57,288 bases of DNA from a virus, in IMG/VR virus record IMGVR_UViG_3300020404_002135, positions 1 to 57,288 of that record, one strand, 5' to 3'. Below the pieces are notes generated by a model that was given only the letters and a program-made list of their open reading frames with translations, was not told the DNA's origin and did no database searches. Both the position numbers and the translations under genes were made by a program. Shown piece by piece: positions 21,637 to 57,036 of the stretch (positions are counted from its first letter, which is position 1; every line of letters starts with the position of its first letter).

Positions 21637-21637
21637 T

Positions 21638-39074: not shown

Positions 39075-39175
39075 AAACAGACACACTATTAAGGATATAC
39101 AAAGTGGTTAGGGTAAAACCTAAACCCAAATATCCACCAGTTCGCAAACATTACAACATTCATAGTTACGGATGA
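39071..39175 (+). CDS. Basic micro-protein between helicase and methyltransferase
   Basis: 34 residues with ATGA overlaps at both ends (helicase stop and methyltransferase start), so it may exist to pass ribosomes along the operon, or as a real peptide. It is rich in Lys, Pro and Tyr (VRVKPKPKYPPVRKHY). No family recognised; a conserved counterpart in relatives would decide. Confidence 0.5.
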   Translation: MKTDTLLRIYKVVRVKPKPKYPPVRKHYNIHSYG

Positions 39176-40260
39176 GAGACACAATTTTATACGGAGATTG
39201 TCGAGAGACACTCAAACAATTTGATGAACAGGCAAGGGTGTGTGTAACATCCCCACCTTACTATGGTTTACGTGATTACGGAACTGCTACTTGGATAGGT
39301 GGAGATCCTAATTGCGATCATAGAAAAAAGGGTAAGCAAGGTTCAAATTGTATTACTGGTCATAAAAATGCCGACATCATGGGTGGTGTTGGAGATTACA
39401 TATACAAAACAGTGTGCCCTAAGTGTGGTGCAGTAAGACAAGATGATCAAATCGGATTGGAAGAGACTCCAGAAGAGTACATTGATCAATTAGTAAACGT
39501 ATTTAAGGAGGTTCGCAATGTGCTTACAGATGATGGAACTTGTTGGGTTAATCTTGGGGATAGTTACTATAATTACAGACCTGGAAGAGGACAAGGATTG
39601 GTTAAGCAAAGTGTCTCTGCTACAAAACAAGACCTACCAGATGTGTGTCCTCGCAGAGGAAATAGACTCGAAGGACTTAAAGAAAAAGATCTTATTGGAA
39701 TCCCATGGATGTTCGCATTCGCAATGCGAGCAGACGGATGGTATCTAAGACAAGATATCATATGGCACAAACCTAATCCCATGCCCGAATCTGTACGCGA
39801 CAGGTGTACAAAAGCACATGAGTACATTTTTTTATTCAGTAAAAATAGGAAGTATCATTATGACAACGAAGCAATCAAAGAACCCGCAAAAGATTGGGGC
39901 ACTAGGAATCGCACTCAAGGCAAGTATCATAATCCTGGCACTGGTTTATCCCCTCACACAGGGTTAACTAAAAGTTATGCTACAAAAAATAAAAGATCTG
40001 TCTGGTCGGTAACAAATAAACCATACAAAGGTGCACACTTTGCTGTATTTCCACCTGAGTTAATCGAACCATGTATCAAAGCAGGAAGCGAGAAGGGAGA
40101 CATAATTTTAGATCCTTTCATGGGATCAGGTACTACTGGAATGGTAGCAAAACAATTAGGTAGAGATTACATAGGTTGCGAACTTAATGAAGAGTATGGT
40201 AAACTAATACAACAACGTGTGACAGATTACAAAGTGTCCATTATGGACATTGTTGGATGA
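39172..40260 (+). CDS. Orphan DNA methyltransferase (beta-class, N4-C or N6-A)
   Basis: 362 residues. Motif IV TSPPYYGLRDYG (about 26-37) comes before motif I DPFMGSGTTG (about 318-327), the beta-class order. Zinc-type ligands (CDH near 45, CPKCG near 83-87) and the block QIGLEETPEEYIDQLVNVF match a family of phage and bacterial site-specific methylases. No cognate nuclease is adjacent, so it probably protects phage DNA from host restriction or marks it. Substrate base cannot be decided from the SPPY motif with certainty. Confidence 0.9.
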   Translation: MRDTILYGDCRETLKQFDEQARVCVTSPPYYGLRDYGTATWIGGDPNCDHRKKGKQGSNCITGHKNADIMGGVGDYIYKTVCPKCGAVRQDDQIGLEETPEEYIDQLVNVFKEVRNVLTDDGTCWVNLGDSYYNYRPGRGQGLVKQSVSATKQDLPDVCPRRGNRLEGLKEKDLIGIPWMFAFAMRADGWYLRQDIIWHKPNPMPESVRDRCTKAHEYIFLFSKNRKYHYDNEAIKEPAKDWGTRNRTQGKYHNPGTGLSPHTGLTKSYATKNKRSVWSVTNKPYKGAHFAVFPPELIEPCIKAGSEKGDIILDPFMGSGTTGMVAKQLGRDYIGCELNEEYGKLIQQRVTDYKVSIMDIVG

Positions 40261-41592: not shown

Positions 41593-41772
41593 ATGTTTAA
41601 TCCAGTGTCTTTTGTAAAAAATGTAAGAACATCCTACAGTAGATTCTTACAAAAAAACGTACAAGAAGTAGAAGTGCAATTTATGGATGAAGATCCTGCA
41701 TGGATTCCATATGACACACTGATCTCTATGTTATCAAAGTTTGGCATACAAGATGAGTATACAGAGACTTAG
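41593..41772 (+). CDS. Small protein before cpeT, unknown
   Basis: 59 residues. Basic start (FVKNVRTSYSRFLQKNV) and a middle with MDEDPAWIPYDTLISML. Overlaps the cpeT start by 20 bases in another frame, so the two are co-expressed from the promoter at 41545-41573. No family recognised. Confidence 0.65.
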   Translation: MFNPVSFVKNVRTSYSRFLQKNVQEVEVQFMDEDPAWIPYDTLISMLSKFGIQDEYTET

Positions 41773-42271
41773 AGAGTTATTGATAGGAACATTTGATAAT
41801 AAACGACAGGCATACCAAAATCCTACATTCTATGCTCATATTAGACTAATACATAAAGATATTGGTAATAATTTGATATATGGAGAACAGGCATATACAT
41901 ATGAACAGGGTAGACCATATCGACAATTTATTATTGAACCTGTGATAGATGGGCAACTAATGAAAGTAAAAAACTATGATATCAAAGAAAAGAACAGATT
42001 TACTGGATTTAAAAATCTGGACAACATTACTCCAGACGATTTATATCATAACACTGGTTGTGACCTACTATTCAATCAAGTAGATTATAACACCTTTACT
42101 GGTGGTTTATATGGATGTGATTGCATGGTAAGAGACTCATACGTTCAAAGTAGAGTTCAAGTTACAACCACTACATATACTACAATAGATATTGGATACT
42201 CCAAAACTACAAATGAAAAAGTTTGGGGATCTGATTATGGACCTTTTGAATTTGATAGACTAAATGCTTGA
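41753..42271 (+). CDS. cpeT: CpeT/CpcT-type phycobiliprotein lyase
   Basis: 172 residues from the ATG at 41753. GTFDNKRQAYQNPTFYAHIRLIHK at the start, PYRQFIIEPV, NTGCDLLFN, GCDCMVRDSYVQSRV and the end WGSDYGPFEFDR are hallmarks of the CpeT/CpcT lyases, which attach bilin to phycocyanin or phycoerythrin beta subunits. Cyanophages often carry cpeT; with ho1 (44616) it would keep light harvesting or pigment turnover going during infection. The conserved Cys pair (GCDC) is kept. Confidence 0.92.
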   Translation: MSIQRLRELLIGTFDNKRQAYQNPTFYAHIRLIHKDIGNNLIYGEQAYTYEQGRPYRQFIIEPVIDGQLMKVKNYDIKEKNRFTGFKNLDNITPDDLYHNTGCDLLFNQVDYNTFTGGLYGCDCMVRDSYVQSRVQVTTTTYTTIDIGYSKTTNEKVWGSDYGPFEFDRLNA

Positions 42272-42920
42272 CATTACAATAAAAGATAATTACTTTCTAG
42301 ACGTTGAACACGTAAGAGAACTTGGTATTAGAAATAGATCATGGAGAATTTCTGATAAACCTGAGACAGGACCAGGATGGAGAGGATTAAGATCTGAGAA
42401 GTTTAAGAAAATAGGTTATGGAAGTAACGAAGAATTATTACAGATAGAGAAAGATATATTTGATTTTATATGGGAAGAGAGAAAACTTAAAGATTGGAGG
42501 TATCCAAGTTGGGAGGAGGATTTTCCAAGTGACTATTATGAAATGTATGATTTAGAACAACCATCTGTAGCAAATTCTCCTTTGTTAGACCCTATGATTA
42601 CAACATATTTTCATAGGAGTCCTGCAAACACAGTTGATATGTTGTATGATTTTCATTCAGACAGATTTCATAAAGATTATCTATCGTGTGCAGGGGTTAT
42701 ATTTCTAAATCCAGATCCCCCACCTTTAACAGGAACTTCAATTCTGGATAGTCGTAACATTCAGTTTGTTAACGTAGAAAACGTGTATAATAGATTGGTA
42801 GCTTATGATGGATATAATATCCACGGTCTATCTGGATGCTTTGGAAATAGTCCAAAGACTGATAGACTAACTATAGTATTCTTTATACACGAAAAAGCAT
42901 TAGCGAAAGCATTTATCTAA
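42264..42920 (+). CDS. Fe(II)/2OG-type oxygenase-like protein (DUF6445-like)
   Basis: 218 residues. The iron-site pattern is visible: FHSDRF (HxD, about 133-138) and a distal His in YNIHGLSGCFG with Arg in TDRLTIVFF about 15 residues on, as expected for the cosubstrate contact. This resembles DUF6445 proteins. Substrate unknown. It overlaps cpeT by 8 bases and sits beside a sugar dehydratase, so hydroxylation of a carbohydrate or protein partner is possible but unproven. Confidence 0.75.
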   Translation: MLDITIKDNYFLDVEHVRELGIRNRSWRISDKPETGPGWRGLRSEKFKKIGYGSNEELLQIEKDIFDFIWEERKLKDWRYPSWEEDFPSDYYEMYDLEQPSVANSPLLDPMITTYFHRSPANTVDMLYDFHSDRFHKDYLSCAGVIFLNPDPPPLTGTSILDSRNIQFVNVENVYNRLVAYDGYNIHGLSGCFGNSPKTDRLTIVFFIHEKALAKAFI

Positions 42921-42922
42921 TT

Positions 42923-43945
42923 ATGACAAAAGCACTTATTACAGGTGGAGCAGGTTTTATTGCACACCATACAATCAGTTACTTATTAAAACATACTGAT
43001 TGGGAGATTATTACTCTTGATAGATTAGATTATAGTGGTAATCTTAATCGTCTGCACGACATTATGCTATCATTTGATCCTGATGTTAGAAAACGTGTAA
43101 AGATCGTACATCATGATCTTAAGGCAGAACTCAATCCATTGGTCTGTAGCGAAGTAGGACAAGTGGATTATATCTTACACTTGGCAGCAGGATCTCATGT
43201 AGATCGTAGTATAGATTATCCTATGGAGTTCGTCATGGATAATGTTGTAGGAACTGCTAACATCTTAGAGTTTGCAAGAAAGCAAGACAATCTTGAAAGA
43301 TTTGTTTATTTCAGTACAGATGAAGTATTCGGTCCCGCACCTAATGGTATCAAGTATAAAGAGAATGATAGATATAACTCTACTAATCCATACAGTGCGA
43401 CTAAGGCAGGTGCAGAAGAGTTAGCAGTGGCATATGAGAATACATATAAACTTCCAATATACATTACCCATACTATGAATGTGTTCGGAGAGAGACAGCA
43501 CCCAGAGAAGTTTATTCCTATGTGTATTAAGAGAGCAAGAGATGGAGAAGTTATAACAATACATAGCGATAAGACTAGAACAATTCCTGGTTCAAGACAT
43601 TATATACATGCTGAAGATGTTTCATCAGCAGTATATTTCTTATTACAATACAAAGGAACATTTTTACCAACTTGGGGAAATGCAAAGTGCCCTAAGTTTA
43701 ATATTGTAGGATCAGAAGAACTAAACAATCTTGAATTAGCACAGATTATTGCTGATGCACAGGGTAAAGAACTGAAGTATGAGTTGGTTGATTTCCATTC
43801 TTCAAGACCAGGACATGACTTGCGATATGCATTAGATGGTGGTAAGATGAGAGAACTCGGTTGGACACCTGCTAAGTCAGTTCGCGAACGCATAGCAGAG
43901 GTTACTAACTGGACACTTAACAACCAGAGGTGGATTAAACTATGA
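42923..43945 (+). CDS. SDR sugar epimerase/dehydratase, dTDP-glucose 4,6-dehydratase-like
   Basis: 340 residues. NAD-binding TGGAGFIAHH at 8-17, FSTDEVFG near 129-136 and YSATKAGAEE (Tyr-x-x-x-Lys) near 152-161; the C-terminus SVRERIAEVTNWTLNNQRW is typical of the RfbB subfamily. It probably makes a 4-keto-6-deoxy sugar nucleotide, for glycan or LPS modification. The TDE triad residues support dehydratase activity. With the mannose isomerase cupin it suggests the phage remodels sugar pools. Confidence 0.85.
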   Translation: MTKALITGGAGFIAHHTISYLLKHTDWEIITLDRLDYSGNLNRLHDIMLSFDPDVRKRVKIVHHDLKAELNPLVCSEVGQVDYILHLAAGSHVDRSIDYPMEFVMDNVVGTANILEFARKQDNLERFVYFSTDEVFGPAPNGIKYKENDRYNSTNPYSATKAGAEELAVAYENTYKLPIYITHTMNVFGERQHPEKFIPMCIKRARDGEVITIHSDKTRTIPGSRHYIHAEDVSSAVYFLLQYKGTFLPTWGNAKCPKFNIVGSEELNNLELAQIIADAQGKELKYELVDFHSSRPGHDLRYALDGGKMRELGWTPAKSVRERIAEVTNWTLNNQRWIKL

Positions 43946-44154
43946 AGGACAATAACATAACTCATGAAGAATTCAAGAGTGTTGCAGATGATTTTTTTCA
44001 AAAGTACGACTATGTTAAACAAAATATGGATGGTAGTACCGAAGATATCATAAAGGTTGTTAATACTATTTGCAATGAGGTTCATTCTCAAAAAGATAGT
44101 AAGAGTAGTTTTTCAGTAGGATTCGCAGGAGATTATGAAAAAGATTCTGTTTAA
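43942..44154 (+). CDS. Small protein, unknown
   Basis: 70 residues, ATGA overlap with the dehydratase. Helical N-terminal 45 residues, then a Ser-rich SKSSFSVGFAGDY. Overlaps the next gene by 20 bases. No family recognised. Confidence 0.65.
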   Translation: MKDNNITHEEFKSVADDFFQKYDYVKQNMDGSTEDIIKVVNTICNEVHSQKDSKSSFSVGFAGDYEKDSV

Positions 44155-44470
44155 CATTAGAGAATTTGCGTGGATAGTAGCAGACGAAATCGCTGATTGG
44201 TTGTATCCATATAGGAACAGACTAACTCCAGAGGAAAGATTTGAAGTTAGGGTTAAAGAACCAATGACTGGTGAAATGTGGATGGTTGAGGAACTTATTC
44301 AACAAATGAATGAGAAGGTAGATAAGTTGCAAGATGATATGCTATATGTAAAAAATAAACTGGCAGAACATGAGAAATTACTTGAATTAAATCCAAAATT
44401 TAGAGTAAGAAAAGCAAGTGAAAGTTTCTCAGTTTCGGGATCAGTGCGGGGAAATGGTATAAATACTTAA
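44135..44470 (+). CDS. Coiled-coil protein, unknown
   Basis: 111 residues. Hydrophobic helical start (ILFNIREFAWIVADEIADWLYPY), a TPEERFEVRVKEPMTGEMWMVEELIQQMNEKV middle and a clear coiled coil at about 50-85. No family recognised. The late box at 44458 lies inside its 3' end. Confidence 0.65.
   Translation: MKKILFNIREFAWIVADEIADWLYPYRNRLTPEERFEVRVKEPMTGEMWMVEELIQQMNEKVDKLQDDMLYVKNKLAEHEKLLELNPKFRVRKASESFSVSGSVRGNGINT
44458..44465 (+). promoter_or_regulatory. T4-type late promoter box
   Basis: TATAAATA, exact, inside the last codons of the coiled-coil gene and 30 bases before the TTG start of the next. It would drive the small gene and ho1. Confidence 0.65.
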
Positions 44471-44494
44471 TTCACACCTTTAGAGGACAACGTT

Positions 44495-44623
44495 TTGGAG
44501 GACAAAAAAGCAGCCAAAAAGATTATCAAACTGGCAAAAAAACATCCTGAGTGGTATAGTGATAAGGATGTTTATTATGCTAAAATGATCAAAAAGAAAC
44601 TTAAGAAAAAGAAAAATGACTAA
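44495..44623 (+). CDS. Lys-rich micro-protein with TTG start
   Basis: 42 residues, TTG start with AGAGGA at 44482-44487. Half the residues are Lys; YSDKDVYYAKMIKKKLKKKK ends it. It overlaps the ho1 ATG by 8 bases, so it may act as a leader that couples translation into ho1. No family recognised. Confidence 0.55.
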   Translation: MEDKKAAKKIIKLAKKHPEWYSDKDVYYAKMIKKKLKKKKND

Positions 44624-45296
44624 TTTTGCAAAACAACTTAAGGAAGGAACAAAGAAGTCTCATTCAGCAGCAGAGAACACTTCTTTTGTTAGATCCTTCC
44701 TGCGTGGAGTTGTGAGTCCAGATAACTATAAATGTTTAGTTTCGGATCTCTACTTTGTTTATAAGGCATTAGAGGAGCAGGTGTATGGGTTAAGATCTCA
44801 TCCTGTCGTAGGTAGTTTATATTTTCCAGAGTTAGAGAGAGTATTATCATTAGAGAAAGATCTAAATTATTATTATGGTTCTGAGTGGAGAACAAAGATA
44901 GAACCAAGTGAAGCATGTAAGAGATATGTTGCAAGAATACGTGAAGTCGCAGAAGATGAACCAGAATTACTAGTAGGACATCATTATACAAGATACTTGG
45001 GAGATTTGTCAGGAGGACAAATACTGAAGGGAATTGCAAAAAAAGCAATGAACTTGAATGAAGAAGGTCTTTATTTTTATGATTTTGAAAAAATTAAAGA
45101 TGCTAAGATTTATAAAGAAAAGTATCGCTCTGTATTAGACACGTTACCACTTACAGAATCTGAAAAAAATGCCATCATTACAGAAGCAAATTATGCTTTT
45201 AGATTGAATATGTATATGTTTGAGGAGTTGGAAGGTAACGCAGCTAAATCATTCTTCCAAATAATTATGGGAGTTATTTTTGGAGTCAAAAAATGA
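44616..45296 (+). CDS. ho1: Heme oxygenase
   Basis: 226 residues, normal size. KSHSAAENT near the start contains the proximal His that binds heme iron; HHYTRYLGDLSGGQILKGIAKKA at about 127-149 is the distal helix with the Gly-rich flexible DLSGG. It opens heme to biliverdin, CO and iron, the first step to phycobilins. Cyanophage ho1 is established in several marine phages. With cpeT in the same region it supports bilin metabolism in the infected cell. The C-terminus is hydrophobic (FQIIMGVIFGV). Confidence 0.93.
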   Translation: MTNFAKQLKEGTKKSHSAAENTSFVRSFLRGVVSPDNYKCLVSDLYFVYKALEEQVYGLRSHPVVGSLYFPELERVLSLEKDLNYYYGSEWRTKIEPSEACKRYVARIREVAEDEPELLVGHHYTRYLGDLSGGQILKGIAKKAMNLNEEGLYFYDFEKIKDAKIYKEKYRSVLDTLPLTESEKNAIITEANYAFRLNMYMFEELEGNAAKSFFQIIMGVIFGVKK

Positions 45297-46888: not shown

Positions 46889-49800
46889 ATGAACATTTAC
46901 CTTGACGGATTTAAAGGTAATCCGTCCGCTTTTGGTTTAGGAGAAACCATACACACATATGAAGATAGACATAAAGGTGGAGACTATGGTAAATCAAAAC
47001 AAGATTTGGCAGCAGTTGGTAGTGCAAGAATAAAGAGAGGATGGTGGACAGATTTTGATGGTAGAGATCATGAAATACATGCATGGTTAAAGATACAACG
47101 TGGTATTACACAAACTGGTAGAGAGACTTATAAAATTGAAGAAGGTCATGGTCTAAGTATTGATGTTGTTAAGGATCTTATTGAAGAGAAATTCTTCTCA
47201 AATAATGTTGAGATAAAAGAATATCGTAACCTTCGCAAACATCAAAAAGAATTTGTATCTGAGATAACTTCAACATGGAATGAGTGGAATGAATACTTGT
47301 TATTTGCTAAGTGTCGTGCAGGTAAATCTACAATGGTTCTTTCATCTATTGTAGAGAATAATGTTAAAGTATCCTTAGTTGTTTCATATAGAAATTCTCC
47401 CAAACAATCATGGAGAGATGATTCGCAACAGTTTCAAAACTTTGATAATATTGTATTCATTGATATTCGCGATGGGGAAGTGGATCAGTTTAAAACTGAG
47501 ATAGAATATTGGATGGAAACTGACAAACAAATAGTTTTATATTCAACTATTCAAGCTCCCAACAGATATAAGAATCTACCATGTAATATTGATTTGATAG
47601 TATTTGATGAAGCACATCTTGGATATCAGGGAGATCAATGGATAACTCTTAAAAATTATTTTGATACAAAAGTATTATATGTCTCAGGAACTGCACATAA
47701 AATCTTAGAAGATTTTCCTAGATTCAGATTTGTATATTCTTACTTTGAAGAACAATTATATAAATTGCAGAACATAGAGGGATATAAAGATTCCCCACAG
47801 ATGAGATTAATTCTTGCAAAGTATGAGTCCAATGAATACCAAGATTTATATGGTGATGATCCTGATGCAATGGGTAATATTTTTAGAGTAAACAAAGATG
47901 AAAATGATTTTGCTGAACCAATATTAGTTGATGAGTTTATGAGTAAAGTTTTTACTCAAGATGGAATAAAGTATAACAAAAGAATACTAAAGAATTGTAG
48001 ACATATAATGATAACTCTACCCTCTATGGCATCATGTCATGCATTTGTAGATTACTTTAAATCAACAAGATTCAAACCATTAGTTGTAACTTCAGATACT
48101 AAAGAAAATTCTGATACAATCAGATCACATATTAGTGCAAATACATCTACAGTTATCTTAACTAAAACTGCAAATGTTCTTGGTTTAACTGCGGAGGGTA
48201 TTGATACTGTTATGAATTGTGCAGAGGGATCATCAAGAGAACAATGGACACAGTTTGCTTTTCGTGGTGGATCAACAAAGAGAAATTCTTGGGATGTAAT
48301 TGATTTTTGTCCAGAACGTTGTTTCACTACAATCAGAAACATGTATTTTACTGCATGTGATTTGAACCATGAACTAACAGAATCTGAATATGAACTTCTT
48401 GATTTAGTCCCTATCTTTGAATACTTCTCTGATTTTGAGGAAGTAACACCAGAACGTTTAAATGAAATTTTATCTAATGATGTGGACAGTGCAATATCTT
48501 TAATATCAGGTATTGTATCTCAGTTAGATTTTCTTAAGTTAGGAGACATTGAATTTGATAATTTCCAGAAGAGTGCGAAGTTATCTTCATGGAGTTCCTT
48601 TACAGTAAATGAGAACAATGCTAACGCAAAGAGTAATAAGAAACTTACCAGTTCATCTAAATTTTCTACACACTATGATAAATCTGAGATAGCACAGAAA
48701 ACAGAGACTATTCAAGCATACATGGAGAGAATAGGATTAGTTATCTTTCACATGATAAAGAATAAATCCACACCCAAAAGTGTAGATAGTATTCTTAATT
48801 CAAAATACTATGAAAATGATACAGGAGATACTACTGGTATTATTAAAGCTTGTTTAGAACAAAAGATTATACCTAAGACATGGATCAATAGAATTAATCA
48901 AGGTATTATAGATATTGAATACTCCATGTCTAAAGATGAATGTGGAACTTTGCAAAAACTTGCAACTACTAGAAAGAATCAAAAGACACTTTCATTAGAT
49001 ATTCTTGATAGAATAATACCTACAAAAACAAAACCCACAGATAAACTAAAAATTGATGGGGATCCATCTGGACTCCATTCTTTATATGCAATAGAGAATA
49101 AATCTTGGGAACCTAATGACATTACTGTCTGGGAGAACGATCCTACACATCGCTATGCAATCACGCAAATTGATGCTAAAATAAATGTAACTGACGACCC
49201 TTTTAATTACAATATGAAATTTAGTGCGACAGTTGGTAATCCACCATATACAGATACATCTACAGTAACAGGTGCAACCACAGGTGGATGTGCAAAAACT
49301 TTAGATACACATTTCTATCTAAGTGCAATGGAGAGATCTGATTATGTATCGGAAGTAATTAGATCAAAACACTTTGCTAAGTCTACATCAAAGTTTAGAA
49401 GAACTTTGTTTTCAACATCAGGTGTTGTTTCTATTGAATCATTATCTCCTGATACATTCCCTTCCATATCAATGACAGAAACATGTATCTGCACATGGAA
49501 ACGTGGATATACTGGATTGACAAAATTAACTTATCTTGATGGTACAGTAAAAGATATCCAACTAACTCCTGATACTTGCATTAGATTCACTAATCCAGAT
49601 TTTGTTTCAGATGTTCCCAATAATATGGGACACCGCTATCAACGTGGAGACTTAAATTTAAATCAGTTGATCAAGGGAGAGTATCCTATGATAACTACAA
49701 TGGGTGGTAAAAATGGAGAAATGCAAATTACTAAAGTTGATAAGTCTCAGTATACTTGTTGTGTTAATCAACATGGAGTTGTAATGAATAGTAAGTATGG

Positions 49801-50008
49801 TGGACAAGGTTTTGGACAAATTCGTATCAAACCATACGATCATGCTATCAGTGGATCTACAGTTATTATAAAAACATCTTCGGAAGAAGAGAGTAATAAA
49901 CTTGCAGATTATTTGAGATCTGATGAAGTGCATCAAATGGTTTTAAAGAATAGAATAGTTAATACTAACTCAAAAGAATTATTCAGAACTATTCCTGATA
50001 TTTTATGA
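46889..50008 (+). CDS. Helicase fused to the C-terminal half of an adenine methyltransferase (R-M-like)
   Basis: 1039 residues. Residues 115-270 are an SF2 helicase front half: KHQKEF, Walker A-like AKCRAGKST at 140-148, VFDEAH at 238-243 and SGTAH at 266-270; VLTKTANVLG and REQWTQFAFRGG (about 427-460) fit helicase motifs V and VI. Residues 776-790 (KFSATVGNPPYTD, NPPY at 784-787) are motif IV of a gamma-class N6-adenine methyltransferase, and the rest resembles a target-recognition region, but motifs X, I, II and III are missing; they lie in the next gene. Residues 1-105 (ETIHTYEDRH, RDHEIHAWLKI, ETYKI) vaguely resemble T5orf172-type GIY-YIG nucleases. The layout resembles Type ISP or IIG restriction enzymes. 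Confidence 0.75.
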   Translation: MNIYLDGFKGNPSAFGLGETIHTYEDRHKGGDYGKSKQDLAAVGSARIKRGWWTDFDGRDHEIHAWLKIQRGITQTGRETYKIEEGHGLSIDVVKDLIEEKFFSNNVEIKEYRNLRKHQKEFVSEITSTWNEWNEYLLFAKCRAGKSTMVLSSIVENNVKVSLVVSYRNSPKQSWRDDSQQFQNFDNIVFIDIRDGEVDQFKTEIEYWMETDKQIVLYSTIQAPNRYKNLPCNIDLIVFDEAHLGYQGDQWITLKNYFDTKVLYVSGTAHKILEDFPRFRFVYSYFEEQLYKLQNIEGYKDSPQMRLILAKYESNEYQDLYGDDPDAMGNIFRVNKDENDFAEPILVDEFMSKVFTQDGIKYNKRILKNCRHIMITLPSMASCHAFVDYFKSTRFKPLVVTSDTKENSDTIRSHISANTSTVILTKTANVLGLTAEGIDTVMNCAEGSSREQWTQFAFRGGSTKRNSWDVIDFCPERCFTTIRNMYFTACDLNHELTESEYELLDLVPIFEYFSDFEEVTPERLNEILSNDVDSAISLISGIVSQLDFLKLGDIEFDNFQKSAKLSSWSSFTVNENNANAKSNKKLTSSSKFSTHYDKSEIAQKTETIQAYMERIGLVIFHMIKNKSTPKSVDSILNSKYYENDTGDTTGIIKACLEQKIIPKTWINRINQGIIDIEYSMSKDECGTLQKLATTRKNQKTLSLDILDRIIPTKTKPTDKLKIDGDPSGLHSLYAIENKSWEPNDITVWENDPTHRYAITQIDAKINVTDDPFNYNMKFSATVGNPPYTDTSTVTGATTGGCAKTLDTHFYLSAMERSDYVSEVIRSKHFAKSTSKFRRTLFSTSGVVSIESLSPDTFPSISMTETCICTWKRGYTGLTKLTYLDGTVKDIQLTPDTCIRFTNPDFVSDVPNNMGHRYQRGDLNLNQLIKGEYPMITTMGGKNGEMQITKVDKSQYTCCVNQHGVVMNSKYGGQGFGQIRIKPYDHAISGSTVIIKTSSEEESNKLADYLRSDEVHQMVLKNRIVNTNSKELFRTIPDIL

Positions 50009-50409
50009 AAAGAAACGATCATAATAAAAATGTAGGATCTGTAATTGAAAGATCAGATGATAGGATAAATGCTACGAGCGAAGTGTTTACACCTATGGAA
50101 GTTTGTGATAGAATGATAGATAGTATACCAGAGGAGATGAAGGTAAATCCTAACTCTAAATTTCTAGATAATTCAGCAGGTAGTGGTAATTTTTTAGTAA
50201 CTCTAAAGAATAAATTACTTCAATATCATGATGAAGATCATATATTAAATAATATGCTATATGCAGTGGAACTTATGGAGGATAATCATCTTGAATTGTG
50301 TAAAAGATTAGGTGTTGAACCTGATCATCCGCATTATGTTTGTCATGATGCATTAACTTATGATTATAGTTTTGGAGAACCAGTTGGATTAGAGGCATTT
50401 TATGAGTGA
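50005..50409 (+). CDS. N-terminal (SAM-binding) half of an adenine methyltransferase
   Basis: 134 residues, ATGA overlap with the preceding gene. It carries motif X FTP (28-30), motif I DNSAGSGNFL (55-64), motif II YAVELMEDNHLELC (86-99) and motif III CHDALTYDYSF (113-123), then stops where motif IV NPPY should follow; that part is in the upstream protein. Together they make one full gamma-class N6-adenine methyltransferase, split at the motif III-IV boundary and with the pieces in reverse gene order. The stop is a true TGA, and the next ATG overlaps it by 8 bases. Confidence 0.8.
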   Translation: MKRNDHNKNVGSVIERSDDRINATSEVFTPMEVCDRMIDSIPEEMKVNPNSKFLDNSAGSGNFLVTLKNKLLQYHDEDHILNNMLYAVELMEDNHLELCKRLGVEPDHPHYVCHDALTYDYSFGEPVGLEAFYE

Positions 50410-50896
50410 GCAAAGGCAACTTTTTCCACCAACAGTCGTTATCAAAGATAACATCAAAATACCAGACGGATGGATTGATAAACTTGAAGAGTGGTGTTTA
50501 AAATACGGAAAATATGTTGAACATGGTAGACTTACTACCACATATGGAACAGCAAACCAACCACATGCAGTTCCATGGATTATGAATGTTCTGGATCTCA
50601 TAGCTCCAGAGGAGGGATTTGATAATTCTTGGGTTCAAATATATGAACCTGGTGGATTTCATCCAATACATAATCACGCAGGAACAAATATAAGTGGTTC
50701 TGGTTGTCTATTCTTAAATGATGGGCAATCTACTTATTTTCAAGATCCACTACATCAAAGTAATACAGCAACTTCTAAAGTTGAGGTAGGTGATGTATTA
50801 ATATGGGATCCAGACATATATCATTTTAGTCCACCTGTCATGGAAAAAAGGATTATTCTAGCATTTAATTTAAAAAACATTGAAGAACCAAAATGA
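50402..50896 (+). CDS. Fe(II)/2OG-type oxygenase
   Basis: 164 residues. VQIYEPGGFHPIHNHAG holds the iron-site His (HxxHNH, about 85-90); GSGCLFLN, KVEVGDVLIWDPDIYHFSP holds the distal His and EKRIILAFN the Arg that would bind 2-oxoglutarate. This is a compact double-stranded beta helix. Overlaps both neighbours (8 and 4 bases), inside a run of oxygenases. Substrate unknown. Confidence 0.75.
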   Translation: MSEQRQLFPPTVVIKDNIKIPDGWIDKLEEWCLKYGKYVEHGRLTTTYGTANQPHAVPWIMNVLDLIAPEEGFDNSWVQIYEPGGFHPIHNHAGTNISGSGCLFLNDGQSTYFQDPLHQSNTATSKVEVGDVLIWDPDIYHFSPPVMEKRIILAFNLKNIEEPK

Positions 50897-51783
50897 TTAC
50901 TAATTTTTCTGAAATGATAGCAGAGTACGATAACGTAATAACTGCTGATGACTGTAAACAGATTATCGAACAATTTGAATATGATAACCGTAAATCTAAA
51001 GGAATTACAGCTTGCGATACTCATGACAATGTAGCAAATGAGAATTCTATTAAGAAATCAACAGACTTATGGATATCATCTTGGCCAGAGTGGCAAAAAT
51101 GGGATCAATTCTTTTATGAAGCACTTTCTCCCTATGTAAAAAAGTATTTGACATTTGTTAAGCAAAAACTAGGGGATGAGGTTCAATCTCTCAGTGCATT
51201 GGTTGATTCTGGATATCAGATACAAAGGACTGAAGTAGGAGAAGGTTATGGTTGGCATGCTGATGATGATTATGGACCTATTTTAGATACAATCGTATAT
51301 CCACTGAGGGGATATAGAGATTCTGGATCTATCTTACAGGCAAGAAGATTATTTACATACATGTTTTATCTTAATGATGATTTTGAAGGTGGGTGCACAC
51401 AATTTAGAGTTGGTGGAGAAAAGGAAGATATACTCTCAGTTAAACCAAAAACTGGTAAATTGATTTGTTTTCCTGCTTCGTGGTATTTTCATCATAGAGG
51501 AGACATGGTTACTGAAGGTACAAAATATGTTTGTACTGGATGGTTAAGTGATCATGTAACTGCTTACACAAATGAAACCACTAGTTTGTCTGCTGAATTT
51601 AGGAGAGATGCTAGGAAATCGGGTAGGAAAATGGTATTGCAGTTTAATGAAAACACTGGTAGAATAGAGGTAGATAAAGATATGCAAAAGGGAGAAACAA
51701 AAGAAGGAAGTGGATACGAAGGTTTATATCCATCGTTATCCAGTATCGAAACAGTAACCAATTCTGAACAAGAGAAAATTTAG
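50893..51783 (+). CDS. Prolyl-4-hydroxylase-type Fe(II)/2OG oxygenase
   Basis: 296 residues. YQIQRTEVGEGYGWHADDD (HxD), RRLFTYMFYLNDDFEGGCTQF, KPKTGKLICFPASWYFHHRGDMVTEGTKYVCTGWL (distal His and Lys contacting the keto acid) match P4H-type oxygenases found widely in cyanophages. It may hydroxylate a protein or other metabolite. Overlaps the preceding oxygenase by 4 bases. The C-terminal 60 residues are basic and extra to the core. Confidence 0.88.
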   Translation: MITNFSEMIAEYDNVITADDCKQIIEQFEYDNRKSKGITACDTHDNVANENSIKKSTDLWISSWPEWQKWDQFFYEALSPYVKKYLTFVKQKLGDEVQSLSALVDSGYQIQRTEVGEGYGWHADDDYGPILDTIVYPLRGYRDSGSILQARRLFTYMFYLNDDFEGGCTQFRVGGEKEDILSVKPKTGKLICFPASWYFHHRGDMVTEGTKYVCTGWLSDHVTAYTNETTSLSAEFRRDARKSGRKMVLQFNENTGRIEVDKDMQKGETKEGSGYEGLYPSLSSIETVTNSEQEKI

Positions 51784-51784
51784 T

Positions 51785-52039
51785 ATGACCATACAAGAAA
51801 CCATACATAGATTACAATCAGACTTAAATGCTGATGATATTGATTTTTTACTTGATGTATTAGACAAAGTAAGTATGAATACTTCTGGGAAGGAATACAA
51901 TGTTATCATGAGTTCGGTAGTAATGAAATTGAACCAACAAGCTGATAGACTACACGAAATTCAAAGGAATTCATCTGCCTATGTGCCACTTGTTGAAGTG
52001 GAACGACAGAGGCATGGAAAAGATTTAGATATATTATGA
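51785..52039 (+). CDS. Small helical protein, unknown
   Basis: 84 residues, one base after the oxygenase stop. Helical (TIQETIHRLQSDLNADDIDFLLDVLDKV; MSSVVMKLNQQADRLHEI), two-helix hairpin likely. No family recognised. Confidence 0.7.
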   Translation: MTIQETIHRLQSDLNADDIDFLLDVLDKVSMNTSGKEYNVIMSSVVMKLNQQADRLHEIQRNSSAYVPLVEVERQRHGKDLDIL

Positions 52040-52046
52040 TAGTAAT

Positions 52047-52424
52047 ATGAAAAATTCAATCCTACTTTCAACAACAGCAGCAATATTACTTTCTGCCACA
52101 CCAAGTTATTCTTCATGGAGACATATAGATCAAACAAAATGTTTTCAAACTAGAGAAGAATATGTACCTGGTAGATTTCGTGATGATGGAAGGTGGTTAA
52201 GAGGATATGTGGTTATAGATCAATTTGAGGTTCCTTGCAAAGATGGAGGAACAGTATATCATCATCCGACACCAGATAGAACACCAGAATGCGATCCAAG
52301 TAAAACTGCAATCGGTGCTATGGGTGGAGGTGCTCTTGGTGCAGGACTAAGTAGAGGGGATGGTCGTTGGTGGGCAATACCACTAGGAGCATTTTTTGGT
52401 GCAAAAACTTATGGATGTGATTAA
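52047..52424 (+). CDS. Exported glycine-zipper protein with signal peptide
   Basis: 125 residues. A signal peptide at 1-22: Lys start, hydrophobic ILLSTTAAILLSA, then PSYSS as a likely cleavage site. The mature part has four Cys and a final hydrophobic Gly-rich GAMGGGALGAGLSRG...WAIPLGAFFGAKTYG stretch (about 90-122), like glycine-zipper (YMGG/17 kDa antigen-type) outer-membrane or periplasmic proteins. No lipobox Cys at the cleavage site. It may act on the cell envelope, for example in lysis or superinfection exclusion; that is inference. Confidence 0.7.
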   Translation: MKNSILLSTTAAILLSATPSYSSWRHIDQTKCFQTREEYVPGRFRDDGRWLRGYVVIDQFEVPCKDGGTVYHHPTPDRTPECDPSKTAIGAMGGGALGAGLSRGDGRWWAIPLGAFFGAKTYGCD

Positions 52425-52426
52425 CA

Positions 52427-52630
52427 ATGATGAATGATTTTTTAGACAATCTTGGAGCAGATCAGTATCAAAAGATGCATAAGACTCCAAAGAAAAAGAA
52501 AGAAAAGGATCCACTATTGGATGAATTGGAAGAACGGATCTTAGAAGGTCCTGTTATCTTTACTCCAGATGAGGAGTTTTTAAAATTAGTTGAAGAAAGA
52601 ACCAAGAAAAAGAATGAGCAAAAAGATTAA
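52427..52630 (+). CDS. Small charged protein, unknown
   Basis: 67 residues, tandem ATG start. Lys/Glu-rich (KMHKTPKKKKEKDPLLDELEERIL; VEERTKKKNEQ). It overlaps the halogenase start by 17 bases. No family recognised. Confidence 0.6.
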   Translation: MMNDFLDNLGADQYQKMHKTPKKKKEKDPLLDELEERILEGPVIFTPDEEFLKLVEERTKKKNEQKD

Positions 52631-54326
52631 GAGTGTATGTATTGTAGGTGGTGGATCATCAGGTTGGATGTCTGCTGCCACATTTGCAACACAACTTCCA
52701 AACATTGACGTTACTATCATTGAGAGTCCAGACTTTCCTATATTGGGAGTTGGAGAAAGCACTCTTGGTGGTATAAAGCATTGGTCTTCATTAATAGGTC
52801 TTGAGGATAAAGATCTGTTAAAAGCAACAGATGGTAGTTACAAGTTAAGTATTAAGTTTACAGATTGGTTAGGGAAAAATACAGGAGGATTTCATTATCC
52901 TTTTGGAGAAGCACAAAGACCTATTGAACAAGTCGGACAAAATGATTGGTGGTTCTTAAAAGGGAATAGAGGTGGTCTTGATAGTAATTCATTTGCACGT
53001 TGCCATTATCCAATAGCTGCAGTTGCAGAGAGAGGTAAAATATCTGAAGATAGTATGGGTAAGACACCTGGTTTTTCATTTGTTCAAGATGTAGCATTTC
53101 ATTTTGATGCAACAGCACTAGGACAATATCTTAAGAAGAAAATATGCTTACCAAAAGGTGTAAAATTAATTGCTTCAACAGTTAAGAAGATTAATACAAA
53201 TGATAATGGAGTAGAGTCTCTAATTCTAGAAAATAAAGAGAAAGTAACTGCTGATTTATACATTGATTGCACTGGTTTTAAGAGTTTACTATTGGAGGGT
53301 GCATTAGGAGTTAAATTCAATAATATTGATACTCTGATTCCAAATAATAAAGCATGGGCAACACATATACCATACACAGATAAGAATAAACAATTACAAC
53401 CATTTACAAATTGTACTGCTCTCAGTAATGGGTGGACATGGGATATACCTCTATGGTCACGCATTGGTGCAGGGTATGTTTATAGTGACAAGTATATTAG
53501 TGATGATGAAGCTCTTAAAGAGTTTAAGGATTATATCAAGACAAAGTACAGTGGTGCTCCATTTGATGATCTTGAATTTAAATCCATTACAATGAGAAAT
53601 GGATTGCATGAAAAAACATGGGAGAAGAATGTAGTTGCGATTGGTTTATCCAGTGGATTTATTGAACCATTAGAAAGTACAGGATTGATGACCACTTATG
53701 AGTGGTTACTATCATTGATCTACACATTACGCAAAGGTTTTGTTAATCAATGGGATAGAGATGCATTTAATTATGCACTTAAAAATATTTTCTATGGACA
53801 CGCAAACTTTGTTGGTATGCATTATGCACTAAGTCCAAGAAATGATACTCCATATTGGCAGGACATAACAGAGAAAGTTAGAATTGATCCAACAGTTAAT
53901 AATTCATTGAACTATGAAACTGATATGGGAGAAAATCTTGAATTACTCTACTATGCTACCTCTGCATACAAATATCATCAGTTTAGGGAGGGTAGTGCAG
54001 GATTCCAGTGTATTGCTGCAGGAATGAATTATTCTCCAATTGATGCAAAGATGCATAGTTCATTAGGAAAGTTAAAAGGATTTGACCCAGATATGCATTG
54101 CGATAGATTACAGGAATTGTATAGTGAAACTGAAAAGAAATATATAAGTTATGCAAATAGTTGCCCTTCATTATATGAATACCTATCTAAGAATATTCAC
54201 GAAAGTAAAAACGACTTTACTTTCATTGGTACAGATAAGGAGGTTCCGAAGCAAGTCTATAACACCATGCCAGAACGTGTCAAGAGAAAAGTTGCAAAAC
54301 CAAAAGGTTTTGTCACCTATGAATGA
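52614..54326 (+). CDS. Flavin-dependent tryptophan-halogenase-like enzyme (copy 2)
   Basis: 570 residues from the ATG at 52614. FAD-binding GGGSSG at 12-17, GVGES at 45-49, catalytic Lys77 in YKLSIKFTDW, W274-T-W276-D-I-P, and GFIEPLESTG at 348-357 with Glu354, so all key residues of PrnA/RebH-type halogenases are kept. It is longer than copy 1 by inserts after about 85 and at the C-terminus and looks distant from it, so the two are not a recent duplication. It sits among 2OG oxygenases. Substrate unknown; VirX1 of cyanophage Syn10 is a possible relative. Confidence 0.9.
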   Translation: MSKKIKSVCIVGGGSSGWMSAATFATQLPNIDVTIIESPDFPILGVGESTLGGIKHWSSLIGLEDKDLLKATDGSYKLSIKFTDWLGKNTGGFHYPFGEAQRPIEQVGQNDWWFLKGNRGGLDSNSFARCHYPIAAVAERGKISEDSMGKTPGFSFVQDVAFHFDATALGQYLKKKICLPKGVKLIASTVKKINTNDNGVESLILENKEKVTADLYIDCTGFKSLLLEGALGVKFNNIDTLIPNNKAWATHIPYTDKNKQLQPFTNCTALSNGWTWDIPLWSRIGAGYVYSDKYISDDEALKEFKDYIKTKYSGAPFDDLEFKSITMRNGLHEKTWEKNVVAIGLSSGFIEPLESTGLMTTYEWLLSLIYTLRKGFVNQWDRDAFNYALKNIFYGHANFVGMHYALSPRNDTPYWQDITEKVRIDPTVNNSLNYETDMGENLELLYYATSAYKYHQFREGSAGFQCIAAGMNYSPIDAKMHSSLGKLKGFDPDMHCDRLQELYSETEKKYISYANSCPSLYEYLSKNIHESKNDFTFIGTDKEVPKQVYNTMPERVKRKVAKPKGFVTYE

Positions 54327-54513
54327 TAAAGAAATCGAAGAATTTATTGAACTATTAAAAGATTACATGATTAAATCAGAAATTGAGATTATTAAGTGGA
54401 AACAAAGACAAGAATACTTTAAAGGTCTTGCTCAACATGGCGACTACTTAGAAAAGGAATCTGCCAAGATGGAGGTTACAGTTGATTATTATATTGATGA
54501 GTTCCTTGTCTAA
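54319..54513 (+). CDS. Small helical protein, unknown
   Basis: 64 residues, overlaps the halogenase by 8 bases. Two helices, charged (IEEFIELLKDYM; EIIKWKQRQEYFKGLAQH). No family recognised. It closes the halogenase unit before a promoter. Confidence 0.65.
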   Translation: MNDKEIEEFIELLKDYMIKSEIEIIKWKQRQEYFKGLAQHGDYLEKESAKMEVTVDYYIDEFLV

Positions 54514-54534
54514 ATCATTTTTTTGTGCTATACT
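54506..54534 (+). promoter_or_regulatory. Sigma70 promoter with extended -10
   Basis: TTGTCT (54506-54511, 4 of 6), 17 bases, TATACT (54529-54534) preceded by TGC. The T tract at 54518-54524 lies in the spacer. It precedes the oxygenase gene with the TTG start. Confidence 0.7.
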
Positions 54535-54556
54535 AACCATATTCGGAGGTGCATAA

Positions 54557-55381
54557 TTGGAATCTAATAATTTTAGATCATGGAATAGCGATGTGAAAGT
54601 TCCTACTGGTCAACCCGAAGGTGGGTTTACCATTAATACAGGAATCACTGAAATACATAATGAAAGACCTGTACGCTCCGAAGATCCAGACACACTGGCA
54701 ACAGAGAAAAAGGATATCAAAGTTACCGATAGGGATATTGGTGTTCTTTTTCCTTCATTACTTTTTAAATCAAGAGTTGATGATGAAGACTTCATTGACG
54801 ATACTGTTAAAAAAGTATTGGACATGGCAAAGAGAGATGATGCAGGAAGTTGTGCAGGAAATCCAAAAGATCCTTTGGGTTGGTATAGTTATGATAATCT
54901 TCATCAAGCAGAGGGTTTTGAATTAGTTCATGACTTTCTACTGAATGAGGCAGCTGCAGTCTTCGCATATCATGATTTTAAAGTGGATGAAGTCTACCTA
55001 ACTTCAATGTGGGCAAATGTAGGATATAAACCAGAGTATTGCCACATGAATCATACTCATCCAAATTCAATATTCAGTGGAGTATGGCATATAAGTGTAC
55101 CAAATATAGGGACACCCTATGCTCAAACTACAACTTTTAGTGATCCAAGAGCTGGAGCAAGAGTTATTGAACCAAATGTTAACAAAAACTTTGCTGCTCA
55201 TAACTCAGGCACAGTTTCTCCTATTGTAAATAAAGGTAGTTTGTTTTTATTTCCATCGTGGTTGCCACATGGAGTACAACAATCACATGAACCTTATAGT
55301 GTTCCTCGCATTACTATTTCATTTAATGCGATGATGACAGGAGAAATCACAACACGCACCGCACCAATTAAATTTACTTAA
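54557..55381 (+). CDS. Fe(II)/2OG-type oxygenase (TIGR02466-like)
   Basis: 274 residues with a TTG start six bases after CGGAGGT (54544-54550), which decides the start. After a ~70-residue disordered lead, the core shows HMNHTHPNSIFSGVWHIS (HxH plus PNS), TFSDPRAG, FPSWLPHGVQ (distal His) and PRITISFN (Arg), the order of the TIGR02466 / 2OG-FeII_Oxy_5 family. Substrate unknown. Confidence 0.85.
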   Translation: MESNNFRSWNSDVKVPTGQPEGGFTINTGITEIHNERPVRSEDPDTLATEKKDIKVTDRDIGVLFPSLLFKSRVDDEDFIDDTVKKVLDMAKRDDAGSCAGNPKDPLGWYSYDNLHQAEGFELVHDFLLNEAAAVFAYHDFKVDEVYLTSMWANVGYKPEYCHMNHTHPNSIFSGVWHISVPNIGTPYAQTTTFSDPRAGARVIEPNVNKNFAAHNSGTVSPIVNKGSLFLFPSWLPHGVQQSHEPYSVPRITISFNAMMTGEITTRTAPIKFT

Positions 55382-55385
55382 AACT

Positions 55386-55553
55386 ATGGCTGGAGTTAAA
55401 AAATGGCGAATCATCCAAAATACAACAATGGGATGGTTTGATGTACAAGAACCAAATTGCTCAGATCTTACAAAAGAAGCATGTAAGGTTAGATTAGAAC
55501 AACTGATGAATGAAGGATTTAATCCAAACGATTTGAAAGCAGTTCCCCACTAA
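55386..55553 (+). CDS. Small protein, unknown
   Basis: 55 residues, four bases after the oxygenase stop. WRIIQNTTMGWFDVQEPNCSDLTKEAC starts with a beta hairpin, then a helix with two Cys. Small conserved-looking; function unknown. Confidence 0.65.
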   Translation: MAGVKKWRIIQNTTMGWFDVQEPNCSDLTKEACKVRLEQLMNEGFNPNDLKAVPH

Positions 55554-55559
55554 CAACCG

Positions 55560-55931
55560 ATGGCAGAAGAGGAATACATTCCAGAAGTCAATGACTATGT
55601 AATCTGGACAAATGATCTTGGGACAATCGATAAAGGATGGGTTTACTGGAAAGGTGAACCTGTCGATAATGAAAAAAGAAAGAAGTTTGGGTGGAGACCA
55701 CTTCAGAACTATATTACCATTGAAACTGGTATACGAGATAAACCTGATTGTGAGTATGACAAAAACAACCCACACAAACACATTCATATTTTAGTCTGTT
55801 GCTATGAACATCAATGGCATCAACTTCAGTTTGTCAAGAAACGCAAGAGTAAGCATGACCAACAAATTGTACAAGAGTCCACTCATATGTACTATAACGA
55901 ACCAAAAGAGAATCATAGCAGAGAGTCATGA
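55560..55931 (+). CDS. Cyanophage conserved protein, unknown
   Basis: 123 residues. IPEVNDYVIWTNDLG with KGWVYW suggests a small beta barrel, then ITIETGIRDKPDCEYDKNNPHKHIHILVCCYEHQWHQLQFVKKR, a His/Cys-rich stretch (about 72-105) I associate with a recurring cyanophage protein. Possible metal binding. It overlaps the next oxygenase by 4 bases. Confidence 0.65.
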   Translation: MAEEEYIPEVNDYVIWTNDLGTIDKGWVYWKGEPVDNEKRKKFGWRPLQNYITIETGIRDKPDCEYDKNNPHKHIHILVCCYEHQWHQLQFVKKRKSKHDQQIVQESTHMYYNEPKENHSRES

Positions 55932-56539
55932 GACATACGATATTTCCTGTATCATATTATCAAGGACAACTTGAGAATAATGAAAGGTTGAAGCAGGACT
56001 TGCTACCTTTTATTAATTCGACCAAGAGAACGTTGACTCCACCAGAAGGATGGTTGACCACAAAAATTACGACGAGTCATGAAAGAGACGACATTAATCG
56101 GTTTTTCATGTCTCAAACAGAACTACAGAGACAGTATCATAATTTAATTAAAACTTTCTTCGATAACAAGTTTGAAGTGGAGGTGGACGAATGTTGGTAT
56201 AATTGTTATGAGGATGAAGAATATCAGGAGTCGCACAATCATATTGGCGATCCTTTAGATCCAAATCATTTTGCATGTGTTCATTTTCTATGTTATGATA
56301 AGAAGGTGCATAGTCCATTAACCTTTACGGATCCGATGGGCATCATTCGATCTCATTCATTAGAGTTCGATTCGCACAACTATGAGGAAATCTTCTCTCC
56401 TGACATTAATGAGGGAGATTTGATTATGTTTCCTTCATATCTGATGCATGAGGTTAAGGCAAATAAACCTACGCCTGGCAATCCACGTATCTCAATCGCA
56501 TTTAACTTTGCAGTTACTTCTTACAATTCAGTTCGATAA
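55928..56539 (+). CDS. Fe(II)/2OG-type oxygenase
   Basis: 203 residues. CWYNCYEDEEYQESHNHIGDPL (HxH), FTDPMG, GDLIMFPSYLMHEV (distal His) and PRISIAFNFA (Arg) show the double-stranded beta-helix oxygenase fold of the TIGR02466-like type. It overlaps its neighbours by 4 and 1 bases. Confidence 0.8.
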   Translation: MRHTIFPVSYYQGQLENNERLKQDLLPFINSTKRTLTPPEGWLTTKITTSHERDDINRFFMSQTELQRQYHNLIKTFFDNKFEVEVDECWYNCYEDEEYQESHNHIGDPLDPNHFACVHFLCYDKKVHSPLTFTDPMGIIRSHSLEFDSHNYEEIFSPDINEGDLIMFPSYLMHEVKANKPTPGNPRISIAFNFAVTSYNSVR

Positions 56540-57036
56540 TGGATTTTATCTATGGAAAAGATGTTCCGATTCATATTCGGGACGATTGGTTGAAACAAAC
56601 AGAACAAGAGAACATCTATCGATATTGCCAGCTTGCTTCTTACACTTATGGAGAACAGGATGAAACTGATCTTGCTCCAACTGGATTAAGTGCAGAGATC
56701 AAGTCCTCTGAATTAATATATCGCTTTTTGTTTGAGAAGACACAACCCATTGTGCCAGATCTTTGTCTGGTTCGCATGTATGTAAATTTATTTGCACCGA
56801 ATGAAGTTCCATACTATCATACAGACGCAGATCAGGGAACAACCTTTCTCTATTATCCACACACAGAGATGTGGACACCAAACTTTCTAGGACAGACAGA
56901 GTTCTATGTGAACAATCGATCCTACATGGTGTCACCAGAACCAAATCGATTAGTCTTCTTCAATGCAGAGATTCTACATCGAGCAACATCCTTTCGCAAC
57001 AAACACCGATTCACAGTCGCACTTAAATATGAGTAA
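56539..57036 (+). CDS. Fe(II)/2OG-type oxygenase with atypical codon use
   Basis: 165 residues. VPYYHTDADQG (HxD), NAEILHRATSF (distal His) and KHRFTVALKY (Arg) give the iron and cosubstrate residues. All nine Arg codons are CGN, whereas the rest of the window uses mostly AGA for Arg, so it may be a recent arrival or differently selected. Overlaps the next gene by 8 bases. Confidence 0.8.
   Translation: MDFIYGKDVPIHIRDDWLKQTEQENIYRYCQLASYTYGEQDETDLAPTGLSAEIKSSELIYRFLFEKTQPIVPDLCLVRMYVNLFAPNEVPYYHTDADQGTTFLYYPHTEMWTPNFLGQTEFYVNNRSYMVSPEPNRLVFFNAEILHRATSFRNKHRFTVALKYE

Follow-up and report, generated by a model that had tools for sequence, protein, structure and literature searches.

Gamma-class DNA methyltransferases such as M.TaqI, BseCI, CamA, and HsdM carry motif X, motifs I to III, a catalytic motif IV such as NPPY, and a target-recognition domain (TRD), with a one-chain order of X-I-III-IV-VIII-TRD. 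In beta-class enzymes the order is IV-VIII, TRD, X, and I-III. Type ISP and IIG enzymes (LlaGI, LlaBIII, Eco57I) join a nuclease domain, a superfamily 2 (SF2) ATPase, a helical region, a methyltransferase, and a TRD, with all motifs in one chain. M.AquI and M.EcoHK31I are natural split cytosine methyltransferases, in which one enzyme is made from two genes. Circularly permuted M.EcoKI-like DNA adenine methyltransferases (DAMs) have been described in jumbo phages (PMC7824862, section 3.4.7), as have proteins that link a GIY-YIG nuclease to an NPPY methyltransferase (PMC1564403). Here we analysed a virus record of 57,288 bases from a marine phage (IMG/VR IMGVR_UViG_3300020404_002135; the whole stretch is called the window below), in which a gene pair at positions 46889-50409 of the + strand encodes a large protein of 1039 amino acids (aa) followed by a small protein of 134 aa. 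We conclude, at a probability of about 0.8, that the pair is one gamma-type N6-adenine DNA methyltransferase made as two chains.

The features of the pair are listed in Table 1. An initial annotation of the window, made without database searches, had assigned motifs X to III to the small protein, which would stop before motif IV, and an SF2 front, NPPY at residues 784-787, and a recognition-like end to the large protein. These assignments held up in the searches, as did both open reading frames (ORFs) and their overlap of 4 nucleotides (nt). Residues 25-93 of the small protein matched Pfam N6_Mtase at model positions 26-88 of 311, that is, in the first quarter of the model only. Among solved gamma-class enzymes, a profile of 42 small-protein relatives matched the N-terminal stretch with motifs X and I, best in CamA (26-82, E 1.5e-4) and less strongly in RM.BsaXI and BseCI. 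In these relatives, which range down to 25% identity, E26, F28, T29, F53, G59, G61, N62, E89, D93, and N94 were invariant. The partition of the motifs is real. In the large protein, Pfam ResIII matched residues 114-268 (E 3e-8), and the match of Eco57I to residues 746-846 was weak (E 7e-4, under the curated cut-off). PHROG_22930 covered residues 9-710, and PHROG_3689, labelled 'DNA methyltransferase', covered residues 719-1036. The pair thus shares with gamma-class enzymes the GxG loop, the motif II acid, and motif X on the small chain and a motif IV of the form (D/N/S)PP(Y/F/W) on the large chain, as well as the TRD and the profile and model matches. It differs from them in that motifs X to III have a chain of their own, whose gene follows that of the catalytic half, and only a remodelled I-III region precedes motif IV in the large chain. 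In the Pfam search of the pair, the beta-class family N6_N4_Mtase (PF01555) was not returned; N6_Mtase and Eco57I were. In the enzyme we propose, the small protein would bind S-adenosylmethionine (SAM), and the end of the large protein would carry the catalytic NPPY and read the DNA, its TRD picking the target sequence. With the small half docked beside motif IV, a TaqI-like active site would then span the chain interface.

Relatives were collected as 80 viral-contig loci chosen by the small protein alone and 52 loci chosen by the large protein. These loci were non-independent, with many near copies among them, and the small-protein tree took 82 distinct sequences. A same-strand partner of the NPPY/F type was found upstream of all 74 small genes that had at least 700 nt of upstream DNA; the remaining 6 of the 80 loci were contig ends. 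Partner and small gene overlapped or lay at most 3 nt apart in 64 of the 74 loci and were separated by 507-562 nt in the other 10. Conversely, 44 of the 52 large-selected loci had the small gene and 7 were cut by a contig end, and the lone exception among the 45 loci with room carried the small gene at another place on its contig. The small gene stood ahead of the helicase in ACG-2014f and far off on the contig in locus L114. Loss of motif IV was looked for in 137 partner ORFs, and 126 of them retained it (NPPY 104, NPPF 19, NYPY 3); the other 11 were partial or had no simple motif. On these counts the pairing exceeds chance, and the split is not peculiar to this contig. The gene-pair relatives were mainly T4-like cyanophages (S-CAM7, ACG-2014f, MA01, P-SSM2, S-SKS1, and Bellamy), and the small protein was also present in Klebsiella, Aeromonas, and Prevotella Lak phages. 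The presence of the pair in Klebsiella phage PKO111 and Prevotella phage Lak-C1 was counted as support for the two-chain reading. In the Lak-C1 megaphage, which uses genetic code 15, a 1108-aa helicase with NPPY is followed by about 1.5 kb and then the small gene (L010, 118-5420). A scan with the small protein over the genomes of 84,980 bacterial and archaeal species returned 3 contigs, all from metagenome-assembled genomes.

Four contigs (L015, L017, L018, and L019) kept the gene order of the window, with the 1039-aa gene replaced by a 273-codon ORF and the small gene next to it. The methyltransferase part of this ORF begins MQFSVVVGNPPY, at motif IV, is about 263 aa long from that methionine, and was about 88% identical to window residues 776-1039. 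Synteny comprised a heme oxygenase gene upstream (where the contig reaches it), the same 89-aa gene, the pair, and, in three contigs, a 2-oxoglutarate (2OG) oxygenase gene. All four had lost the nuclease-like domain, the ATPase, and the remodelled I-III region (hereafter the remodelled N-half). Between the minimal form and the window, the ratio of nonsynonymous to synonymous substitution rates (dN/dS) was about 0.12-0.13 in the C-half; the small gene gave 0.14-0.15. Unrelated partners in P-SSM2, L032, L042, L044, L058, and L077 likewise started at motif IV. In viruses with such partners the small protein is the sole possible source of a SAM half, and we regard the four syntenic contigs as the strongest single evidence that the sequences offer for a split enzyme.

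Natural fusions of the two parts were also found, in the order IV-TRD-X-I-III. They comprised gp083 of Aeromonas phage PX29 with loci L092-L095 (NPPY at residue 9 in the 415-aa members, EPSCGDG at 322) and a protein of rumen contig L153 (NPPY at 9, DNSAGNG at 361). The fusions were gamma-like in sequence despite having the beta-class motif order, which they show as single chains and the window shows as two genes. An AlphaFold model of the PX29-type fusion had a mean predicted local distance difference test score (pLDDT) of 69.7 and a predicted template modelling score of 0.65; the cores of both methyltransferase halves exceeded a pLDDT of 90. Its best solved match was M.TaqI (E 6e-4), over only about 150 columns because Foldseek cannot align permuted chains. 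Together, the minimal relatives and the same-order fusions bear out the central claim of the initial annotation, namely one gamma-type unit divided after motif III and before motif IV, its X-III half being encoded second. Its further description as a split, permuted variant stands with regard to the split; the swapped order alone is not new, because the beta-class order is known and permuted phage methylases are on record (PMC7824862).

In sequence comparisons of related phages, the small piece was almost unchanged and the large piece was swapped. These patterns are best read as a near-constant SAM-binding half that goes with exchangeable catalytic and recognition halves. One genome of Synechococcus phage S-CAM7 (L001) carries two different split pairs, at 14117-15561 and 21462-22477, each partner followed by its own small gene. 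Seven loci (L048, L077, L081, L103, L104, L106, and L107, of which L077 and L104 share a contig) have two NPPY/F catalytic subunits and one small gene, and the single SAM half may there serve two specificities. We tentatively propose a plug-in methyltransferase for T4-like and Lak-type phages, in which a constant SAM subunit would serve interchangeable, sometimes two, catalytic subunits, specificity would be changed or doubled by a one-gene swap, and the shared GIY-YIG translocase would be the restriction arm; as a whole, this scheme falls a little below the balance of probability.

We further considered what the front of the large protein contributes. The ATPase region of its AlphaFold2 model resembled SauUSI and Snf2-type ATPases, and the helical region behind it is called a coupler from its position. 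Of the 24 members of the N-terminal family, 6 matched Pfam T5orf172 (best 6.4e-7) and 6 matched MUG113, and Y4, G18, R27, D32, D60, and E79 were conserved; at the equivalent position, Klebsiella PKO111 carries an undoubted GIY-YIG domain. The window copy of the domain alone had no family match, and searches of the PDB with the N-terminal profile (A7) and with a mixed alignment (A6) gave chance-level matches only. In locus L087 (2954-6001) the N-terminal domain was near-identical to that of the window and the remaining protein far diverged, a pattern that we read as exchange of the GIY-YIG-like part at the domain level. The catalytic half is fused behind this GIY-YIG-like, possible nuclease domain and the SF2 translocase-type ATPase, which would add restriction activity, so that the complete pair probably acts as type ISP/IIG restriction-modification enzymes do, but with the SAM half supplied in trans. 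Its role may be protection of phage DNA or attack on rivals. The strongest alternative is that the pair methylates only, in protection of the phage DNA, with the nuclease-like domain and the ATPase inactive or otherwise employed. It draws on the unmatched N-terminal domain and on the four near relatives, which retain the methylating pair without nuclease and ATPase. However, R27, E79, and the helicase motifs were kept in relatives under purifying selection (dN/dS 0.05-0.20 and about 0.11), and loss of the restriction part with the methylase kept is also the expectation for a restriction-modification system, because loss in that direction is harmless; the four relatives fit that system and also pure self-protection. 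We consider methylation alone a real contender, somewhat short of an even chance.

A second alternative concerns the region between the coupler and NPPY, where large-chain residues ~718-770 read GDPSGLHSLYAI...ITVWENDPTH.... In an alignment of 31 relatives (A10), D725, P726, and G728 were invariant and E749 nearly so. The remodelled N-half was under purifying selection (dN/dS 0.15-0.16) and was modelled at a pLDDT of around 91-96 as a strand-helix-strand-helix-strand unit running into NPPY. It lacked motif X and the second glycine of the motif I GxG and retained DPxG and an acidic residue. The initial annotation, which overlooked both this conserved region and the GIY-YIG-family N-terminal domain, had found no SAM-binding motifs in the large protein; this was correct in that a full motif I is missing and too strong in view of the remodelled N-half. 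On this alternative, the large chain would be a complete methyltransferase by itself, with SAM bound by its remodelled N-half, and the small protein would have arisen from a duplicated N-half and serve as an accessory or regulator. Besides the unmatched N-terminal domain, several observations here weigh against the two-chain enzyme. AlphaFold2, given the large chain alone, placed residues ~718-783 with high confidence where the small half should sit, and residues ~718-1039 folded as one TaqI-like unit (match of the large-chain model to M.TaqI over ~405 columns, TM-score 0.58 by target length, E 3e-9). The conservation of DPxG and the acidic residue, under the selection noted above, means that the large chain could hold its own altered SAM site. 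Moreover, S-CAM7 0809CC03 (L002, 4931-6402) has a near-canonical DPAMGGG in its large chain, the sole such case, with the small gene still present. Yet GxG was missing from the other 94 of the 95 distinct partner regions before motif IV, no type B partner with an N-half retained the second glycine or had motif X, and the small protein kept every SAM motif wherever it was found. The N-half was wholly absent from the partners in L005, L032, L042, L044, L058, the four syntenic contigs, PX29, and L153. We therefore consider a complete one-chain enzyme improbable.

The two-chain enzyme leaves several roles for the remodelled N-half, further versions of which were found in other partner types. Small proteins of one clade paired with partners having or lacking it (5 with and 3 without in the window clade, support 98/97), so the remodelled N-half cannot decide whether the small protein is needed. 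In the five two-partner loci in which both partners had an N-half, the N-halves were 44-77% identical and the catalytic halves 28-32%; with five loci as its basis, this is a lead pointing to a docking module that the partners have in common. The N-half could thus be displaced by the small half, act as a docking module, or be a placeholder. Alignment of the small-protein profile with the remodelled N-halves by hhalign gave no significant link, and common descent of the two is for this reason not established. The type E N-half matched HemK motifs I-IV weakly (E 0.02), and the type B and C N-halves matched each other, with the shared NPPY helping the score. Compared with four close relatives, the window was divergent at 48989-49220 and at about 50084-50264, which correspond to the remodelled N-half and, in the small gene, to the part with motifs X and I. 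In the N-half patch the synonymous rate reached about 0.8, compared with about 0.3-0.45 in the surrounding sequence. The pattern was absent from comparisons among the relatives; a third divergent patch lay in the ATPase, around 47699-47834. The first two patches may reflect a single recombination event or contact surfaces that have co-adapted. A last alternative, in which the small protein binds SAM on its own (as a SAM sink or regulator) and travels with the large gene without joining its active site, would suit a separate gene that can lie about 510-560 nt away, before the helicase, or at a distance, but is very improbable given the fusions in two unrelated virus groups, the exceptionless pairing, the partners without any N-half, and the poor prospects of half a Rossmann fold with an open edge as a stand-alone protein.

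Table 1. Positions of the gene pair and its predicted features in the window
Feature	Position	Strand	Basis and remarks
Large subunit	46889..50008	+	1039 aa: GIY-YIG-like domain, SF2 ATPase, helical coupler, remodelled motif I-III region, motif IV, TRD
T5orf172/GIY-YIG-like N-terminal domain, possible nuclease	46889..47143	+	Residues ~1-85; family matches, conserved residues
SF2 translocase-type ATPase	47204..48508	+	Residues ~106-540; ResIII match, AlphaFold2 fold match
Helical coupler-like region	48680..49018	+	Residues ~598-710; high-pLDDT helices in AlphaFold2 model
Remodelled N-half	49040..49198	+	Residues ~718-770; GDPSGLHS for motif I, VWEND at motif II
Catalytic/recognition half	49214..50005	+	Residues 776-1039; motif IV onward, TRD-like end; PHROG_3689; M.TaqI fold match of the C-terminal part
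Motif IV NPPY	49238..49249	+	Residues 784-787
Small subunit, free-standing SAM-binding half (predicted)	50005..50409	+	134 aa, motifs X, I, II, III
Motif X core FTP	50086..50094	+	Residues 28-30; F28, T29 invariant in 42 relatives
Motif I DNSAGSGNF	50167..50193	+	Residues 55-63; GxGN in 106/106 distinct small proteins
Motif II YAVEL	50260..50274	+	Residues 86-90; E89 invariant
Motif III CHDAL	50341..50355	+	Residues 113-117; last methyltransferase motif of small chain

At 41741-45296 the window encodes a CpeT-like protein, a sugar nucleotide dehydratase/epimerase, and a heme oxygenase, as in cyanophages. Around the pair, at 34828-36306 and 50402-57033, lie genes for two tryptophan halogenases and for five 2OG-Fe(II) oxygenases; similar cyanophage clusters have been read as a possible halogenated-metabolite pathway (PMC7824862). 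At 37893-40260, 7 kb upstream of the pair, the window encodes a further, separate helicase (ResIII, Helicase_C) and, after it, a DNA methylase that is complete in one chain (N6_N4_Mtase, E 6e-59).

The permuted EcoKI-like DAMs are enzymes of the same kind as the pair and occur in related phages of the T4-like and Lak types, and the PX29 and L153 fusions are permuted as well; the part of that survey devoted to DNA modification describes no two-gene form in which the SAM half is constant and the partners vary (PMC7824862). The domain order of the pair is that of type ISP/IIG enzymes (nuclease-like domain, SF2 ATPase, helical region, methyltransferase, TRD). In contrast to these, the window has a GIY-YIG-like domain instead of an Mrr nuclease, its intact SAM half acts in trans on our reading, it is phage-encoded, and the best fold match of its ATPase is SauUSI and not an ISP enzyme. 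With M.AquI and M.EcoHK31I (named in PMC3404938) the pair would share the making of one methyltransferase from two genes, here with complementary motif sets and constant co-occurrence; those, however, are cytosine-C5 enzymes and isolated bacterial cases, whereas the present family is of adenine type, virus-wide, and has exchangeable partners. In Klebsiella PKO111, PHROG_314 and PHROG_21201 present the same arrangement, a GIY-YIG domain fused to an NPPF half and then a small SAM half, but without a helicase, and their annotations, homing endonuclease and DNA methyltransferase, do not treat them as a single enzyme. Searches of an open-access library, which holds no subscription papers or preprints, turned up no account of an adenine methyltransferase made from two genes in which the SAM half is constant and the catalytic halves vary.

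From these comparisons the split pair looks like a real, little-noticed building plan, for which the small half is a readily searchable marker. If our reading is correct, a large group of phage genes labelled 'unknown function' or 'homing endonuclease' (PHROG_4376, 5172, 22930, and 314) would belong to one enzyme system. The pair would also be a natural two-part adenine methyltransferase, allowing a direct test of an N6-adenine active site built across two chains. For the phages that carry it, it would represent a viral modular specificity system comparable to the S subunits of type I enzymes.

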